A stretch of DNA of 38,977 nucleotides from Actinomycetales bacterium (GTDB taxonomy: Bacteria; Actinomycetota; Actinomycetes; Nanopelagicales; Nanopelagicaceae): assembly GCA_007280395.1 (NCBI GenBank), contig QYQH01000070.1, positions 1 through 38,977 on the forward strand, given 5' to 3'. The position numbers and the translations under genes were made by a program. The notes beneath the pieces are model-generated. The model was not told where the DNA came from. It worked only from the letters and a program-made list of their open reading frames with translations, and did no database searches. Positions 4,959-38,977 of this stretch are shown piece after piece. Positions within the stretch are counted from its first letter, which is position 1. Each line of letters opens with the position of its first letter.

Positions 4959-6674
4959 TTAGTCTTCTATGAGACATAAGGTCGCACCACTAGCAACGGT
5001 TTGACCAACGCTTACTTGCAATTTAGAAATGGTTCCGGCCTTATGAGCAATCAGTGGCTGCTCCATCTTCATCGCTTCTAGTACAACTATTAAATCGCCA
5101 ACTTCAACTCGATCGCCATTTCCCTTAACAACTTTAACAACCGTCCCCTGCATAGGGCTCTCCAAAGAATCTCCGGCAAGAGCAGTAATTGCATTGCTCC
5201 TTACGCGGTGTCGTTTTTGAATTGGTTCAGGGGTATGGAGAAGAACTTCAAAGCGATGGCCATCAACTTCCGCAATAATTTTCTGGGATGCAGCCTTTGA
5301 ATCTGCCGTTCCCTGCTTAAATGAAAATGGTGGAATCTCATTCTTAAATTCGTTTTCAATGTAACTGGTATATACCTTGAAATCTTTAGTGAAATTTGGA
5401 TCTTCAACAATTGCGCGATGAAATGGCAGCGCAGTCGCTAGGCCGCCGATATGAAATTCACGAAGTGCGCGACGAGCACGATCAATCGCTTCCGCGCGGG
5501 TTGAGCCAGTGACAATTAACTTTGCAAGTAGCGAATCAAAGTGTGAACCAATTGTGTGCCCATGATCAAAGCCAGCATCGATTCGAACACCAGGTCCTGA
5601 TGGAACTTCCCATTTAGTAATCGTTCCTAGTGAAGGTAGGAAACCCTTTCCTGGATCTTCGCCATTAATTCTAAATTCAATACTGTGTCCACGAATTGTT
5701 GGGTCGACCGGATTAATAGTTTGACCATCCGCAATTCTAAATTGTTCACGAACGAGATCTAGGCCAGTCACTTCTTCACTTACTGGGTGTTCTACTTGCA
5801 ACCTGGTGTTAACTTCCAAGAACGAGATAGTGCCATCAGAACCAATTAAGAATTCACAGGTACCGGCGCCTACATAGCCGGCTTCTTTCATTATCGCCTT
5901 ACTTGAGGCATAAAGTTGATCGATCTGGGCTTGAGTCAAGAATGGAGCAGGAGCCTCTTCAACTAACTTCTGGTGGCGACGTTGTAGCGAACAGTCGCGA
6001 GTACTTACAACAATTGCATTTCCTTTAGCATCAATTAAAACTTGAGTTTCAACATGTCGTGGCTTATCTAGATAGCGTTCGACGAAACATTCACCGCGGC
6101 CAAAGCCGGTAATAGCTTCACGTACGGCTGATGCAAAAAGTTCTGGAATTTCCTCGATTGTGTGTGCAACTTTTAAGCCGCGGCCACCACCTCCGTGCGC
6201 TGCCTTGATTGCAACCGGCAGGCCATGTTCTTTTGCAAATGCAACAATCTCTTCAGGCGTATCAACTGGGTCAGTTGTTCCAGCTACAAGTGGAGCGCCA
6301 ACTTTCGCAGCAATCTTTCGGGCGGAAACTTTATCGCCAAGCAATCTAATTGCGCTTGGTGGGGGTCCGATCCAAATTAAACCGGCTGCAATAACCCGAT
6401 CAGCAAAATCTGCATTCTCTGAAAGGAATCCATATCCAGGATGGACCGCATCTGCTCCAGATTTTTTTGCAATCTCAATAATTTTATTCTGGTCTAAATA
6501 AGTTTCGGCTGCAGACAATCCTTGTAGGGCGTAGGCCTCATCAGCGGTCGCAACATGAAGTGATGTTCGATCTTCATCAGAATAGATAGCGATTGATTTA
6601 ATGCCATGGTCACGAGCGGCGCGGGCCACACGTACCGCAATTTCACCTCGGTTCGCAATTAGAACGGCTTTCAT
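4959..6674 (-). CDS. accA3: Acyl-CoA carboxylase alpha chain (biotin carboxylase + biotin carrier)
   Basis: A 571-residue fusion of biotin carboxylase and biotin carboxyl carrier domains. It carboxylates its own biotin with ATP and bicarbonate, for transfer by the beta subunit onto an acyl-CoA. The BC domain starts [19 protein letters not shown]. The ATP-grasp glycine loop is [10 protein letters not shown], and [14 protein letters not shown] is in the active site. The biotinylated lysine is Lys536 in EAMKMEQ, 35 residues from the C-terminus. It is the last gene of accD-accE-maf-accA3, with its ATG overlapping the maf stop (ATGA). Its biotin ligase is encoded divergently by birA. By synteny it corresponds to mycobacterial AccA3, which serves several beta subunits. 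Confidence 0.95.
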
Positions 6675-7291
6675 GCACTCACCGCCGCCTTAGAAATTGC
6701 ACTCCAAGAAAGTCCAAGTGAATTAACTGCGCGCCTAAGCAAGGGAAGTGAGAGCCCAATGATTCCTGAGGGATCTCCTTCGATTCTAGAGATAAATGGC
6801 GCACTTAAGCCATCTAACGTGAAACCACCTGCAACGTTTAGTGGTTCACCTGTCGCAACATAGCCAGCAATTTCGGCATCTGTCATATCGGCAAAAAATA
6901 CCTTTGAAGTCGAAACGTCGCTAATTTCAATACCTTGTTTAGTATCGATTATGCAGTGTCCCGTATGTAAATATCCGTAATTTCCACGCAGCTCTTTGCA
7001 GCGAGCAGTTGCCAGTTCTGGTGTCATTGGCTTTCCAAAAGATTTTCCATTGAATTCAAAGGTTGAATCGCAACCAATAATTAAATGTTCGTTGCCAACT
7101 AAATTTTTAATTGTGTGAGCCTTTAGAATTGCTAGTGCGATAACCATTTCGCGTGGCGCTAGCGCGGTTAACTTTGTATCTTCTTCATCAACTCCGCTAA
7201 TCATTACTTCCGCAGAAATCCCACTTGAGTCCAAGAGACGTTTGCGCGAAGGGGAGGCAGATGCCAAAACAACATATCTAGATTCAGACAT
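6671..7291 (-). CDS. maf: Maf-family nucleoside triphosphate pyrophosphatase
   Basis: House-cleaning pyrophosphatase that hydrolyses non-canonical or modified NTPs to NMPs. The N-terminal nucleotide-binding motif [12 protein letters not shown] and the [16 protein letters not shown] catalytic segment are present, as is [14 protein letters not shown] near the C-terminus. I place the start at the ATG at 7289-7291 (206 aa), which overlaps the accE stop in a TAATG. A start six codons further upstream would run into accE. The gene's position inside the acyl-CoA carboxylase operon is conserved in actinobacteria and does not by itself imply a role in carboxylation. Confidence 0.92.
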
Positions 7292-34894: not shown

Positions 34895-35746
34895 ATGAGC
34901 GAACTACATTTCTTGAGCCAGCTAACCGGATGTTTTGCCCAGCCGGTAGATGAGAATCCGACAGTAGTTATGGTCGAAGCCGCCTATCGCCACCATGGTT
35001 TGAACGCACGTTATATAAATATTGAAGTCGGCCCAGAAAATTTAGGTGAAGTAGTTGCTGGAGCAAAGGCGATGGGATGGATTGGATTTAACTGTTCGAT
35101 CCCAAATAAATTGGCAGTTATCAAACATTTAGATGGGATAGGGGAATCGGCTTCAGTAATTGGCGCTGTTAATTGCGCAGTTCTTCGAGATGGCAAATTT
35201 ATCGGTGAAAATACCGATGGTAAGGGCTTCTTGAAATCTCTTGAAGGTGTAATTGATCCAGCCGGCAAAACAGTTGTGATGTTTGGTGCAGGTGGCGCAG
35301 CTCGAGCGGTAGGAGTAGAACTTGCTCTGGCTGGGGCCAACAAAATCATCGTAGTAAATCGTGACGAAGGTCGAGGCAGAATTTTAGTTGAACTAATTAA
35401 TACCAAGACAGAAACTGAAGCAGTATTTATTTCCTGGAGCTCTAAATTTTCAATTCCCATAGGCACCGACATTGTTATTAATTCAACGTCTATTGGGTTA
35501 TTTCCAGATGTAGATGCTCAGTTAAATATTGATTTTGAAACTTTGCGCAGCGGAATAGTTGTGGCTGATGTAATTCCAAATCCTCCCAAGACTCACCTAC
35601 TACGCGAGGCGAAGGCTCGAGGTTGTGTAACTCTTGATGGCTTGGGGATGTTAGTGAATCAAGGAGTTATTGGAATTAAGTATTGGACAGGTATTGATGC
35701 CGATCCTGGCGTTATGCGGAAGGCTTTAGAAGAGGTCTTTGGTTAA
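34895..35746 (+). CDS. Shikimate dehydrogenase-like oxidoreductase (AroE family, altered substrate motif)
   Basis: A 283-residue two-domain dehydrogenase. The catalytic Lys72 (NCSIPNK) and Asp108 (ENTDGKGF) and the NADP loop GAGGAARAVG (131-140) are kept. The usual N-terminal SxSPxxHN shikimate-binding motif is replaced by PVDENPTVVMVEAA, so the two serines that grip the substrate carboxylate are gone. It is therefore probably not the biosynthetic AroE. Its neighbours (UxaA-like dehydratase, lldD) point to a catabolic hydroxy acid. A ribosome site GAGAGG lies upstream. The stop shares TTAA with the convergent gene. Confidence 0.82.
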   Translation: MSELHFLSQLTGCFAQPVDENPTVVMVEAAYRHHGLNARYINIEVGPENLGEVVAGAKAMGWIGFNCSIPNKLAVIKHLDGIGESASVIGAVNCAVLRDGKFIGENTDGKGFLKSLEGVIDPAGKTVVMFGAGGAARAVGVELALAGANKIIVVNRDEGRGRILVELINTKTETEAVFISWSSKFSIPIGTDIVINSTSIGLFPDVDAQLNIDFETLRSGIVVADVIPNPPKTHLLREAKARGCVTLDGLGMLVNQGVIGIKYWTGIDADPGVMRKALEEVFG

Positions 35747-36906
35747 CGAATAATCGTGTTGTACATGCGGGATAATGAGAACTCGTGATGCAGACCTTTT
35801 TCAGCCTTAGTTAATTGGCCATTTGCTACTTCGAGGATCAAATCAAAGAGTTCGCCGCCAACATCGCTCAAGGTTTTTAAACCATCAGCAATAGTTCCTG
35901 CATTTAAGTCAATTAAATCTGGAATTGCATCTGCCATTGTGGTGTTTGTTGCAACCTTGATTGTTGGGACAATCGCAGAACCAGTTGGAGTTCCTCGCCC
36001 TGTTGTGAAGACAATTATATTTATACCGCCAGCACCATAACCAGTTAGTTGTTCGGTGTCATGGCCAGGAGTATCCATAAAATAGAGACCTGGCTTGGTA
36101 ACTTGATCTGCAAATTCAAATACGCCGGAAAATTGTGCGCTGCCAGCTTTCTTTGCCGCGCCCAGTGATTTCTCTTCAAGAGTTGTTAGGCCGCCTTCAA
36201 TATTTCCACGGGATGGTTGCGCGCCACGCATATCAATACCTTCATAGTTAATTGAACGTTCGTACCTGGCAACGGTTTCAACAATTCGAGCACCAATTTC
36301 AGGTGTAATTGCACGAGCCGCAAGTAAATGCTCAGCGCCTAAGATTTCAGTTGTTTCACCGAGTACGGATGAAGCACCAAGTTCTACTAAACGATCACTT
36401 GCAACGCCAAGTGCGGGGTTTGCAGTGATACCGGAGAGCGCATCTGATCCACCACATTCTTGGCCAAGTTTGATTGCACTCCAAGGTGCGCTGATTCGCG
36501 AAACCGCCTTCGCCTCTTTCAACAATGAATTAGCCATCTGTAGGCCGATTTCTGCAATCTTGCCCATCGAACCAAGTTCGGCAACGTTTAGAACCTCTGC
36601 TTTAGAAAGCCCGAGCTTTCTTGCTAGTTCAATGATTCCTAATTCATTTGGCGTACCGATGGTGATAAATATTGTTGCAAAGTTATTTGGATTTGCAGCA
36701 AATCCAGAAATAGTTTTAACTATGCGATCAAAATCGCCATCAACCTCGCCAGACCAATCGTGGCTTACTGCCACAGCGCCATTTGATTCATCGGCAATCT
36801 TGCGTGCAGTTGCCGAGAAAGCGGAGTGGAGCGGAAGAATTAAAACGTGATTACGCAGGCCCCATCGACCATCGCTTCTTTCAAATGCCGTTAATTCTTT
36901 AGACAC
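35743..36906 (-). CDS. UxaA/SuyB-family dehydratase large subunit, C-half intact
   Basis: A 387-residue member of the altronate/galactarate dehydratase family. It keeps the C-half signatures: GQECGGSDALSGITANPALG (148-167), GETTEILGAEHLL, FMDTPGHD and TTGRGTPTGS. In the N-half the expected HQHGCG reads SHDWSG and the expected GLGCE reads TIGTPNE, so those metal or catalytic residues are lost. The start is GTG 36904-36906, with AGGTG upstream; it overlaps the previous gene's stop by 8 bases. A longer frame exists but runs through the previous gene. It probably acts together with the 270-residue paralogue upstream. Confidence 0.85.
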   Translation of the reverse strand: MSKELTAFERSDGRWGLRNHVLILPLHSAFSATARKIADESNGAVAVSHDWSGEVDGDFDRIVKTISGFAANPNNFATIFITIGTPNELGIIELARKLGLSKAEVLNVAELGSMGKIAEIGLQMANSLLKEAKAVSRISAPWSAIKLGQECGGSDALSGITANPALGVASDRLVELGASSVLGETTEILGAEHLLAARAITPEIGARIVETVARYERSINYEGIDMRGAQPSRGNIEGGLTTLEEKSLGAAKKAGSAQFSGVFEFADQVTKPGLYFMDTPGHDTEQLTGYGAGGINIIVFTTGRGTPTGSAIVPTIKVATNTTMADAIPDLIDLNAGTIADGLKTLSDVGGELFDLILEVANGQLTKAEKGLHHEFSLSRMYNTIIR

Positions 36907-37711
36907 TTCGCACCTCGCGGCCGGCAATGATTTCGCCAGCGCCGATCGCCTCGACCTTAGTGAGTTCACCATTTACTACGGAGTTAATCTTCTCCATGAT
37001 CTCTTCTGGTGAAGAATCTGCGGACAGATCAAAATCCTGTGAAATGGCCGTATGCAAGGGCGAGCCACTTGCAACATTGATTGTCGGGATAAGTGGAAAG
37101 CCTGATGGTGGTTGGTTTCTATCTGGGAAGGAGAGAATGACGTGAACTCCTGCCTCCATCAAATCTGAGAAATTTAGGCCAGAATTTTTATGGGATGCCG
37201 CAACGGTAATATCGACGCCAACCTCGGTAAGCGCAGAGACAATTTCATCAACCTTTATATTGTCATCTGAAAGATCAATTCCAAGATGCAATCGGGGTAG
37301 CACAACTTGAGGTGTTGGATATTTTGCTTTTAACTCCGTTGCGGCAGCAACGCCAGAATTAACAGTTCCTTGCACACCGCCACTCTCTTGAGTCACGAGG
37401 TAATTAGTGGATTTATTCTTGGAGAGTAATTTAGCTGCGAGTTCATTTCCTTGAAGCGTTTCACAACCAAGTCCAACAACGAGCGTTGAACTTACATTTG
37501 GATGATTTGCAAGAGCAGCGAAGAAATCAGTAATGCGACCAACATCATTACCAATAAATCCACAACCATGTTGGTGGGCAAAGGTAATTGCATCCATCTC
37601 TTTTGCGATTCGACTTGAGACACGAGTAGAACAGACAACAGAAGGCAGAATTAATTGATGATTCCGAATTCCAATTCCACGATTACCGTGATCAAAGCCC
37701 TTCATGCTCAT
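36899..37711 (-). CDS. UxaA/SuyB-family dehydratase paralogue, N-half intact, C-half shortened
   Basis: The 270 residues keep the N-half signatures of the UxaA large chain: GIGIRNHQLILPSVVC, AHQHGCG (45-51), VVGLGCE (78-84) and TQESGGVQGT. Where ECGGSD is expected it reads DLSDDN, and about 100 residues between there and the GGANxxxFTTGRG segment are missing. The end (PLIPTINVASGSPLHTAI, then VVNGELTKVEA) still aligns with the family C-terminus. Its own ATG overlaps the SAF gene stop (ATGA), and its stop overlaps the next GTG, so it is an intact co-translated gene and not a frameshift product. Confidence 0.82.
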   Translation of the reverse strand: MSMKGFDHGNRGIGIRNHQLILPSVVCSTRVSSRIAKEMDAITFAHQHGCGFIGNDVGRITDFFAALANHPNVSSTLVVGLGCETLQGNELAAKLLSKNKSTNYLVTQESGGVQGTVNSGVAAATELKAKYPTPQVVLPRLHLGIDLSDDNIKVDEIVSALTEVGVDITVAASHKNSGLNFSDLMEAGVHVILSFPDRNQPPSGFPLIPTINVASGSPLHTAISQDFDLSADSSPEEIMEKINSVVNGELTKVEAIGAGEIIAGREVRSV

Positions 37712-37986
37712 ACAACTTGCTCCGTAGATAATCGGTCACCTAGAACATTGTGGGTATGAACATGTTCGCCAACTTTAATATCAGTTGTCGCATGGCCCAT
37801 GCGTTCACCATATTTAATGATGCCCTCATTCTTTGCGATCGCGGTTGTCGCTACTTTATGACCACGAGGGATGAGGCTTTGAATAGTGAGATTTAGGCCA
37901 TCTTGTCCGATAACTTCGCCAATTGCCAACTCAACTAAGCAGACGGCAATATTGTCTTTCTCGTTAAGAATCAGGACCTTACGCAT
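37708..37986 (-). CDS. SAF-domain small subunit of UxaA/SuyA type
   Basis: A 92-residue SAF domain, equal to the N-terminal domain of UxaA or the small subunit SuyA. RGHKVATTAIAKNEGIIKYG and VGEHVHTHN are the family signatures (His42 and the HVHTHN end). In galactarate and altronate dehydratases this domain folds over the active site. It is the first of three overlapping genes, divergent from lldD across a 47-base gap. Confidence 0.88.
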   Translation of the reverse strand: MRKVLILNEKDNIAVCLVELAIGEVIGQDGLNLTIQSLIPRGHKVATTAIAKNEGIIKYGERMGHATTDIKVGEHVHTHNVLGDRLSTEQVV

Positions 37987-38033: not shown

Positions 38034-38977
38034 ATGGGTCAATTAAAAGTTAAGCGCCGTTTTCCTGGAGTCAAAGAGCTAGCCGCTTTGATGCAATTTC
38101 GGAAGCCAATATTTAATGGTCGCAAACGTCGTCTGACTCGTGCACTAACTATTTATGACTTACGAGATATTGCGAAACGTCGCACGCCACAAGCACCATT
38201 TGATTACACAGATGGCGGCGCAGATACCGAATCAAGTTTGATTCGTGCCCGCGAAACATTTGAAAAAATTGAGTTCCAACCAAGAATTCTCCGGGATGTC
38301 TCAAGTGTTGATACATCAGTAACAATGCTCGGAGAACTCACATCAATGCCGATTGGAATTGCTCCAACTGGATTTACTCGAATGATGCAGACCGAAGGTG
38401 AATATGCCGGAGCAACAGCGGCTCGCGATGCTGGAATTCCTTTCACACTTTCAACAATGGGCACGCGTTCTATCGAAGATGTTGCCGCAATCGCACCTGA
38501 TGGTCGCAACTGGTTCCAGTTATATATGTGGAAGGACCGCGATCGTTCAATGGCTTTGGTTGATCGTGCAAAGGCTGCGGGCTTCGACACCTTAGTTTTA
38601 ACGGTAGATGTCCCAGTCGCAGGAGCAAGACTTCGAGATGTTAGAAACGGAATGACAATTCCACCATCACTAACGTCTAAGACAATATTAAATGCACTTC
38701 CACGTCCGGCTTGGTGGCTGAATTTTTTAACTACCGATCCACTTAAATTTGCTTCACTTGATAGTTGGAAGGGCACAGTTGCTGAACTGCTAGATTCAAT
38801 GTTCGATCCAACTGTAACTGTCGAAGATCTAAAATGGATTCGCAAGCAATGGGATGGCAATCTGCTCGTTAAGGGAATTCAGAGCGTTGAAGATGCTGTC
38901 ATGGTACAAAAAGCTGGCGCAGATGCAATCACGCTTTCAAATCATGGTGGCCGCCAATTAGATCGCGCACCCGTTCC
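38034..38977 (+). CDS. lldD: FMN-dependent L-lactate dehydrogenase (3' end outside window)
   Basis: Alpha-hydroxyacid dehydrogenase oxidising L-lactate to pyruvate at the membrane. The frame from ATG 38034 is open to the window end (314 codons of an expected 400 or so). [56 protein letters not shown] and the active-site SNHGGRQLD (His304) are present. The segments [19 protein letters not shown] and [11 protein letters not shown] are characteristic of the actinobacterial LldD2 type. It is divergent from the UxaA-like genes, suggesting that they share a catabolic role. Confidence 0.94.

Follow-up and report, generated by a model that had tools for sequence, protein, structure and literature searches.

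A putative heteromeric dehydratase of the UxaA/GarD superfamily in Actinomycetota, in which two paralogous chains divide four conserved cysteines three to one

The D-altronate dehydratase UxaA and the galactarate dehydratase GarD (PDB 6u7l) of Escherichia coli contain in one chain a SAF domain, a second domain, and a C-terminal domain, together with four cysteines and the CGGSD, PGN, and TGRG motifs. In UxaA, the four cysteines lie in conserved motifs at positions 132 (ILPxxxC), 166 (HxxGC), 199 (GLGCE), and 264 (CGGSD), and the equivalents in GarD are cysteines 144, 179, 215, and 288. In two-gene dehydratases, the SAF domain is a separate subunit, and a large chain of about 390 amino acid residues carries the same second and C-terminal domains. 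In 3-sulfolactate sulfo-lyase (SuyAB), the SAF subunit is also separate, and the large chain does not contain the three cysteines of the second domain. Here, we describe a locus of three overlapping genes, named S, A, and B, in a 38,977-nucleotide contig from an Actinomycetales bacterium (QYQH01000070.1; the whole stretch is called the window). In this locus, the domains are spread over three chains, and the four cysteines are divided between two paralogues.

In the accessible text of Watanabe et al. (2019; PMC6336799), Cys134, 173, 208, and 276 of D-arabinonate dehydratase are described as conserved throughout the superfamily except in SuyAB, Cys-to-Ser changes are reported, and one iron on four cysteines is proposed; a heteromeric L-fuconate dehydratase is also mentioned there, and only two-subunit forms are named in that text. 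Judging from their spacing, these residues appear to be the four motif cysteines, because a Burkholderia relative contains Cys142, 177, 212, and 280 among its seven cysteines, and the last three positions share a shift of 4; the first requires a small indel. Obligate heteromers formed from complementary degenerate paralogues are known from other protein families. To our knowledge, none is known in the UxaA/GarD superfamily. The initial annotation of the window, too, knew of no described enzyme with this arrangement, and our searches of the open PubMed Central literature turned up no UxaA-family enzyme that is described as having two paralogous large chains. The superfamily itself is already known; the 3+1 division of the cysteines over two paralogues appears to be new. 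From the sequences, we consider it fairly probable that S, A, and B form an obligate heteromeric sugar-acid (aldonate) dehydratase of this superfamily, whose iron site would be formed by A and B together.

All three genes are on the minus strand. S (37708..37986) encodes a SAF-domain subunit of 92 amino acid residues (Pfam SAF, 37 bits), the counterpart of the N-terminal domain of UxaA and of SuyA. A (36899..37711; 270 residues) encodes a UxaA-family chain representing the iron-cysteine half, and B (35743..36906; 387 residues) encodes one representing the catalytic half. S and A overlap by ATGA, and A and B overlap by 8 nucleotides, GTGTCTAA, where the GTG start of B (at 36906) lies over the stop of A; the longest open reading frame of B extends to an ATG at 36972. 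The initial annotation had described three overlapping cistrons at 35743-37986, and its coordinates and open frames were right. In Pfam searches, A matched GD_AH_second with 100 bits and a weak C-terminal piece of GD_AH_C with 19 bits, below the cut-off, and B matched GD_AH_second with 54 bits and GD_AH_C with 308 bits. Jointly, the three chains contain all the domains of the UxaA/GarD superfamily (COG2721), SAF, GD_AH_second, and GD_AH_C, above the cut-offs. The cut-off of the galactarate dehydratase model TIGR03248 (731) was not reached by B (227 bits), A (24 bits), or S (36 bits). No further GD_AH_C gene was found in the window genome (1.22 Mb, 82% complete). A and B share the start motif G-[IL]-RNH-x-LILP and align with each other in the second domain (30% identity, E = 2e-8) and in a C-terminal stretch (31%, E = 5e-7); they are therefore paralogues and not two pieces of one gene, as had been proposed from the start motif.

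The initial annotation had also noted that conserved motifs are lost in a complementary manner, and the sequence bears this out. A contains HQHGCG (residue 46) and GLGCE (residue 80), and it is devoid of CGGSD and of most catalytic C-domain residues. B contains ECGGSD (150), a PGN-type motif, FMDTPGHD (276), and TTGRG (301; TGRGTP), and it contains neither HQHGCG nor GLGCE. The motifs were correctly named, but a third cysteine of A, Cys27, was overlooked. In fact, the only cysteines of A in the window are these three (27, 50, and 83), and B has a single one (151). In alignments with each codon checked (all on the minus strand), A Cys27 (LILPSVVC; 37631..37633) corresponds to UxaA Cys132 and GarD Cys144, A Cys50 (HQHGCG; 37562..37564) to UxaA Cys166 and GarD Cys179, and A Cys83 (GLGCE; 37463..37465) to UxaA Cys199 and GarD Cys215, and all three are lost in B. 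B Cys151 (ECGGSD; 36454..36456) corresponds to UxaA Cys264 and GarD Cys288, and its motif is lost in A. Neither chain thus has the four cysteines that UxaA and GarD have in one chain.

Relatives of B were found in 110 of 296 genomes of the family of the window genome, and they comprised B proper (at least 61% identity, 49 genomes) and a class with 32-40% identity. A adjoined B at all 49 loci of B proper, in the order S-A-B, and S was present at 48 of them. Among these loci, the contig of G014 ends inside A, before S; B of G197 is cut; and G313 looks frame-shifted at the A/B junction. A profile of A detected full-length A in eight of 394 genomes of the class, all of them known carriers of B, and one additional full-length A (G956) in 396 genomes of the phylum. 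In the family of G956, a second family that belongs to another class than that of the window (146 genomes), A was found in four genomes, each with S-A-B in the same order. In the opposite direction, a profile of B (E <= 1e-90) gave two B-type matches in the 396 phylum genomes, the window (714 bits) and G956 (451 bits), and each of these has A. Eight further matches had at most 344 bits, and seven of them were ordinary forms with all four cysteines, the eighth being a 390-residue frame in G898. Across the second family (146 genomes), the B profile found exactly the four carriers of A (445-471 bits). Strict co-occurrence had been set as a test by the initial annotation, and the profile searches in both directions, over the family, class, phylum, and second-family genome sets, met no genome with A without B or with B without A.

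The division of the cysteines is not a chance feature of the window; it was the same in 53 actinobacterial systems from the two families (L021 and L022 are duplicates of L100 and L099, and each was counted once). All 52 A chains whose N-terminal half could be read had the three cysteines, as against none of 53 B chains, and the fourth was present in all 53 B chains and in none of 53 A chains. L098, whose A is cut at a contig end, is outside the counts of A cysteines, and L097, whose B is cut, leaves gaps in part of the B columns. Exactly three cysteines were contained in 34 of the 52 A chains, and exactly one in 35 of the 53 B chains, where the B counts were taken after motif-based trimming of upstream extensions of the reading frames. 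A stray cysteine near the fourth site was seen in one A chain. Two loci have an unusual A/B junction: in L090 (G108; 5208-7176), a single TAG codon alone separates A and B in the same frame, and in L096 (G313; 409-2333), the junction appears frame-shifted or mis-assembled, since the match to A stops at residue 247 and the match to B begins at residue 61.

Both chains are conserved by selection, and mainly in the halves that bear the motifs. Among 20 systems of the window family, the mean pairwise identities of the second domain and the C-terminal part were 0.61 vs 0.45 in A and 0.48 vs 0.79 in B. In groups of three to six uninterrupted chains, the C-terminal part was ahead (0.82/0.87, 0.58/0.69, and 0.47/0.64) or level (0.84/0.84); A thus reverses the usual order of the domains, and B exaggerates it. 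The ratio of nonsynonymous to synonymous substitution rates (dN/dS) in four close relatives (six pairs) was 0.036-0.083 for A and 0.014-0.023 for B. Purifying selection is therefore acting on both chains, most strongly on the N-terminal half of A and the C-terminal half of B. The initial annotation had spoken of two degenerate chains; the complementary loss of motifs agrees with this, but 'two specialised chains' is a better description because each retained half is strongly constrained. In trees, A and B each form one clade, and both clades split alike by family; the trees in this study were built from 24 or 17 of the 53 systems. The identities of A and B were also correlated (r = 0.95 for 276 pairs from 24 systems, and 0.82 for 190 pairs within the family), which is no test of contact because the pairs share ancestry. 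If S+A and S+B were two separate enzymes, or if the pair were decaying and heading for loss, the loss of canonical motifs in both chains would be expected; this explanation appears highly improbable, given that A and B occur as a pair in 53 systems of actinobacteria and 16 of archaea (see below) with no orphan met, that dN/dS is low (0.014-0.083), and that the trees match. A pseudogene or a frameshifted single gene was rejected on account of the same start motif in both chains, the low dN/dS, and the 53 conserved copies.

A similar division was found outside Actinomycetota. A tblastn search of A against plasmids gave matches in haloarchaeal records. A further search, with one haloarchaeal A chain as the query, gave 259 records, and among the best 40 of these, 16 haloarchaeal plasmid records had about 48% identity or more, the record of the query included (L197, L199-L201, and L203-L214). 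In all 16, the gene order was B' (393-398 residues), SAF, and A' (364-403 residues), with mostly overlapping ends. The order B-S-A differs from the actinobacterial S-A-B, and both haloarchaeal chains are near full length. All 16 A' chains contained the three cysteines, and none contained CGGSD; all 16 B' chains contained CGGSD, and neither HxxGC nor LGCE occurred in any of them. A tree of the second domain grouped B with B' (support 90/86) and A with A' (44/78), neither grouping being starred. In a tree test of the C-domain, B and B' held together gave a p value of 0.0495 in the approximately unbiased test (p-AU). The neighbouring genes in many of the haloarchaeal records are those of sugar acids (dihydrodipicolinate-synthase-like, FAH-family, and enolase-family genes, dehydrogenases, and transporters). 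All three genes of the haloarchaeal B'-SAF-A' operon are annotated as 'UxaA family hydrolase', so that the three-gene arrangement is now hidden. In Halostagnicola larsenii (L197), the annotated start of A' seems to be too late, and a doubtful hypothetical-protein gene overlaps the probable true start.

Relatives with one uninterrupted large chain kept all four cysteines, in ten of ten two-gene forms and seven of seven single-chain forms (E. coli UxaA and GarD are not counted); 16 of these 17 came from searches with A, which biases the set to keepers of the three cysteines. The A-profile searches gave 15 stretches with ordinary forms, from which 14 proteins were used (eight two-gene and six single-chain), L181 being cut and excluded. 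The two-gene dehydratases (L177-L180, L182-L185, L198 from Salmonella, and L202 from Priestia) resemble S-A-B in the separate SAF and in the second and C-terminal domains, but their large chain has all four cysteines, and no adjoining A was seen. The viral contigs scanned contained no relative of B; two single-chain relatives with four cysteines were found there and used as alignment rows.

The class with 32-40% identity to B was SuyB-like. In nine of nine fetched loci, it consisted of S and one large chain only, without the three cysteines and without A. The S-A-B locus differs from SuyAB in having a paralogous partner and a gene context other than that with SlcC/ComC. SuyAB-like loci are separate from S-A-B, and at least two genomes of the family (G286 and G300) carry both kinds. 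No SuyAB-like large chain was found in the window genome. These nine chains are a precedent for a reading in which S and B form a complete, SuyB-like enzyme free of the three cysteines, and A is an accessory for stability, regulation, or iron delivery that lies outside the site. The residues of the catalytic domain speak otherwise: D395 (UxaA numbering) is conserved in 52 of 52 readable B chains and 17 of 17 ordinary forms and is changed to Ala in all nine SuyB-like chains, and R416 is conserved in 52 of 52 readable B chains, in 13 of 17 ordinary forms (eight of ten two-gene and five of seven single-chain), and in none of the nine SuyB-like chains, which have Gln. In the C-domain tree, actinobacterial B was apart from the SuyB-like chains (93/95); on the strength of this separation and the conservation of both residues, we rejected actinobacterial B as a SuyB derivative. 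Furthermore, the three cysteines of A are invariant, and little else of the catalytic set remains in A to explain such invariance. We regard an accessory role of A as rather unlikely.

In the shared-site enzyme that we favor, the ancestor would have been a chain carrying the four cysteines of the iron site, and it would have been duplicated. A would have retained the second-domain half, with three cysteines, while losing the catalytic residues of the C-domain, and B would have retained the catalytic C-domain (the fourth cysteine, Ser and Asp of CGGSD, PGN, PGHD, and TGRG) and lost the three cysteines. The two chains would then pair, probably via their second domains, to place the iron and the substrate pocket between the second domain of A and the C-domain of B, and S would serve as the usual SAF piece of the complex. 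Of the two sites present in the ancestral homodimer, one would be dead. The GarD structure reportedly has its dimer interface in the second domain; in that case, the second domains would also be where A and B pair. Because B keeps a second domain of its own, A can complement B only if the site is formed across the dimer or is rearranged. We infer from the sequences that the chains assemble physically, share one iron, have one live site per pair, and use an aldonate, which would be altronate in the clades whose gene cluster includes the uronate isomerase UxaC. A heteromer with a site made from two chains was already the reading of the initial annotation, and it is supported, short of proof, by the paralogy, the pairing, the complementary motifs, the purifying selection, and the constraint in the motif-bearing halves.

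Several observations weigh against a shared site. The loss of the three cysteines in B does not prove that A supplies them, because SuyB-like chains lost them without a partner; for the same reason, the complementarity is strong evidence and not proof. R416 is not universal among ordinary forms. In four of the 53 actinobacterial B chains, a stray cysteine lies within four columns of the first site, with none near the other two. B has an invariant His-Asp/Glu-Trp at the place of HQHGC in A (HDW in the window family and HEW in the second family; His49-Asp50-Trp51 in the window, 36754-36762), and the second domain of B is therefore not simply dead. Three near-identical A' chains of Haladaptatus have a lone cysteine (VCSDL) aligned with the fourth position, and in another three A' chains a cysteine lies within four columns of it. 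Haloarchaeal B' joined the SuyB-like chains in the C-domain tree (98/93, on a long branch), which also favors an accessory role of A. Single-chain structure models were too poor to decide the matter. The AlphaFold model of B (15 shallow rows) was weak, with a mean predicted local distance difference test score (pLDDT) of 59.6 and a predicted template modeling score (pTM) of 0.64, and that of A (13 rows; pLDDT 42.8) was unusable. In a Foldseek search with the weak B model, the only matches at E <= 0.001 were the four chains of GarD 6u7l (best E = 2.4e-13, template modeling score 0.51).

His46 and the three cysteines of A were all invariant in an alignment of 23 rows, and this would also be expected if A bound an iron of its own, with the three cysteines and another ligand, apart from the pocket of B, as a metal store or structural iron in the same complex. 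However, in the 17 ordinary relatives, the same cysteines always accompany the fourth in one chain, and the accessible text of PMC6336799 treats the four as one site. We therefore consider a separate iron in A quite improbable, and prefer a single iron site to which both chains contribute.

The haloarchaeal systems raise the question of how often the site was split. We hold only tentatively, as something short of probable, that the split occurred independently in Actinomycetota and haloarchaea and produced obligate heterodimers with one live site, formed by the second domain of A and the C-domain of B, and one dead site. If the split was independent, duplication followed by complementary loss would be a repeated route in the superfamily. 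The pair that survived would also reveal which domains make up the active site of the ordinary UxaA and GarD homodimers, namely the second domain of one chain and the C-domain of the other. More generally, if our proposal is true, the UxaA/GarD active site is predicted to lie between chains, a placement not stated in the texts consulted, and complementary loss would have fixed a heteromeric enzyme in both Bacteria and Archaea. Specialists would be surprised that the 3+1 division is so clean and that it recurs in Archaea. In this locus, nature has taken apart an enzyme from a poorly understood family of iron dehydratases: the iron-cysteine half stands apart from the catalytic half, so that each half can be expressed, mutated, and mixed.

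To consider the substrate, we compared the flanks of 42 S-A-B loci (31 + 11) by clustering. At 13 of the 42, from five genera, S-A-B is convergent to genes for UxaC and a reductase of the mannitol dehydrogenase family. UxaC at two scanned loci of the 13 scored 505 and 482 bits (cut-off of the NCBIfam glucuronate isomerase model, 387). These neighbours suggest that dehydration of D-altronate is likely at the 13 loci. Among the genomes of the window's genus, UxaC was present in 12 of the 19 that have S-A-B and in one of the eight that lack it (Fisher's exact test, p = 0.033, uncorrected for kinship). Other findings are less favorable to altronate. The reductase beside UxaC scored best as fructuronate reductase, then as D-arabinitol 4-dehydrogenase, and then as tagaturonate reductase, all below the cut-offs. 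No match to UxaC was found in the window genome (82% complete), including the window itself, and seven of the 19 S-A-B genomes of the genus have none; altronate is therefore unlikely to be the universal substrate. In the second family, a gene of the histidinol dehydrogenase family is beside S-A-B at two of three examined loci (L192 and L193). The nearest solved relative of that in L193 is sulfopropanediol 3-dehydrogenase, with histidinol dehydrogenase almost as near, and the neighbours could belong to a sulfonate pathway. At L193, a glycerate kinase gene is also beside S-A-B, and the substrate there is possibly different. At seven loci, S-A-B adjoins genes for two FGGY kinases, a class II aldolase, and a HAD protein (one locus scanned), and 15 loci, including all 11 of the window's genus, lie near a flavin mononucleotide (FMN) dehydrogenase. 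Judging from these contexts, the substrate of S-A-B probably varies among clades.

A gene at 38034-38977 (plus strand) of the window, which runs off the end, is divergent from S, and each of the genus's 11 named loci with flanks contains a homologue at this place. The gene at this position in the sister locus L023 is an FMN-dependent dehydrogenase. The closest named relatives are metagenome-assembled genomes titled Actinomycetota or Actinobacteria, including one 'Candidatus Nanopelagicales'; two are titled Bifidobacterium breve, probably wrongly. L037 was a chance match.

Clustering of the nine SuyAB-like loci, with one representative of each gene scanned, showed that all nine have a PfkB kinase and two dehydrogenases, a 2-hydroxyacid dehydrogenase and an Ldh_2 dehydrogenase; seven also have a PF03601 (sulfate-exporter-family) gene, and six have a DeoC/LacD-family aldolase. 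The best NCBIfam model for the Ldh_2 dehydrogenase was sulfolactate dehydrogenase, below its cut-off. This context fits SlcC/ComC/SuyAB as described in the accessible portion of PMC12421959. The actinobacteria carrying these loci (L101-L109, from other genomes of the window family) may degrade a sulfosugar to sulfite.

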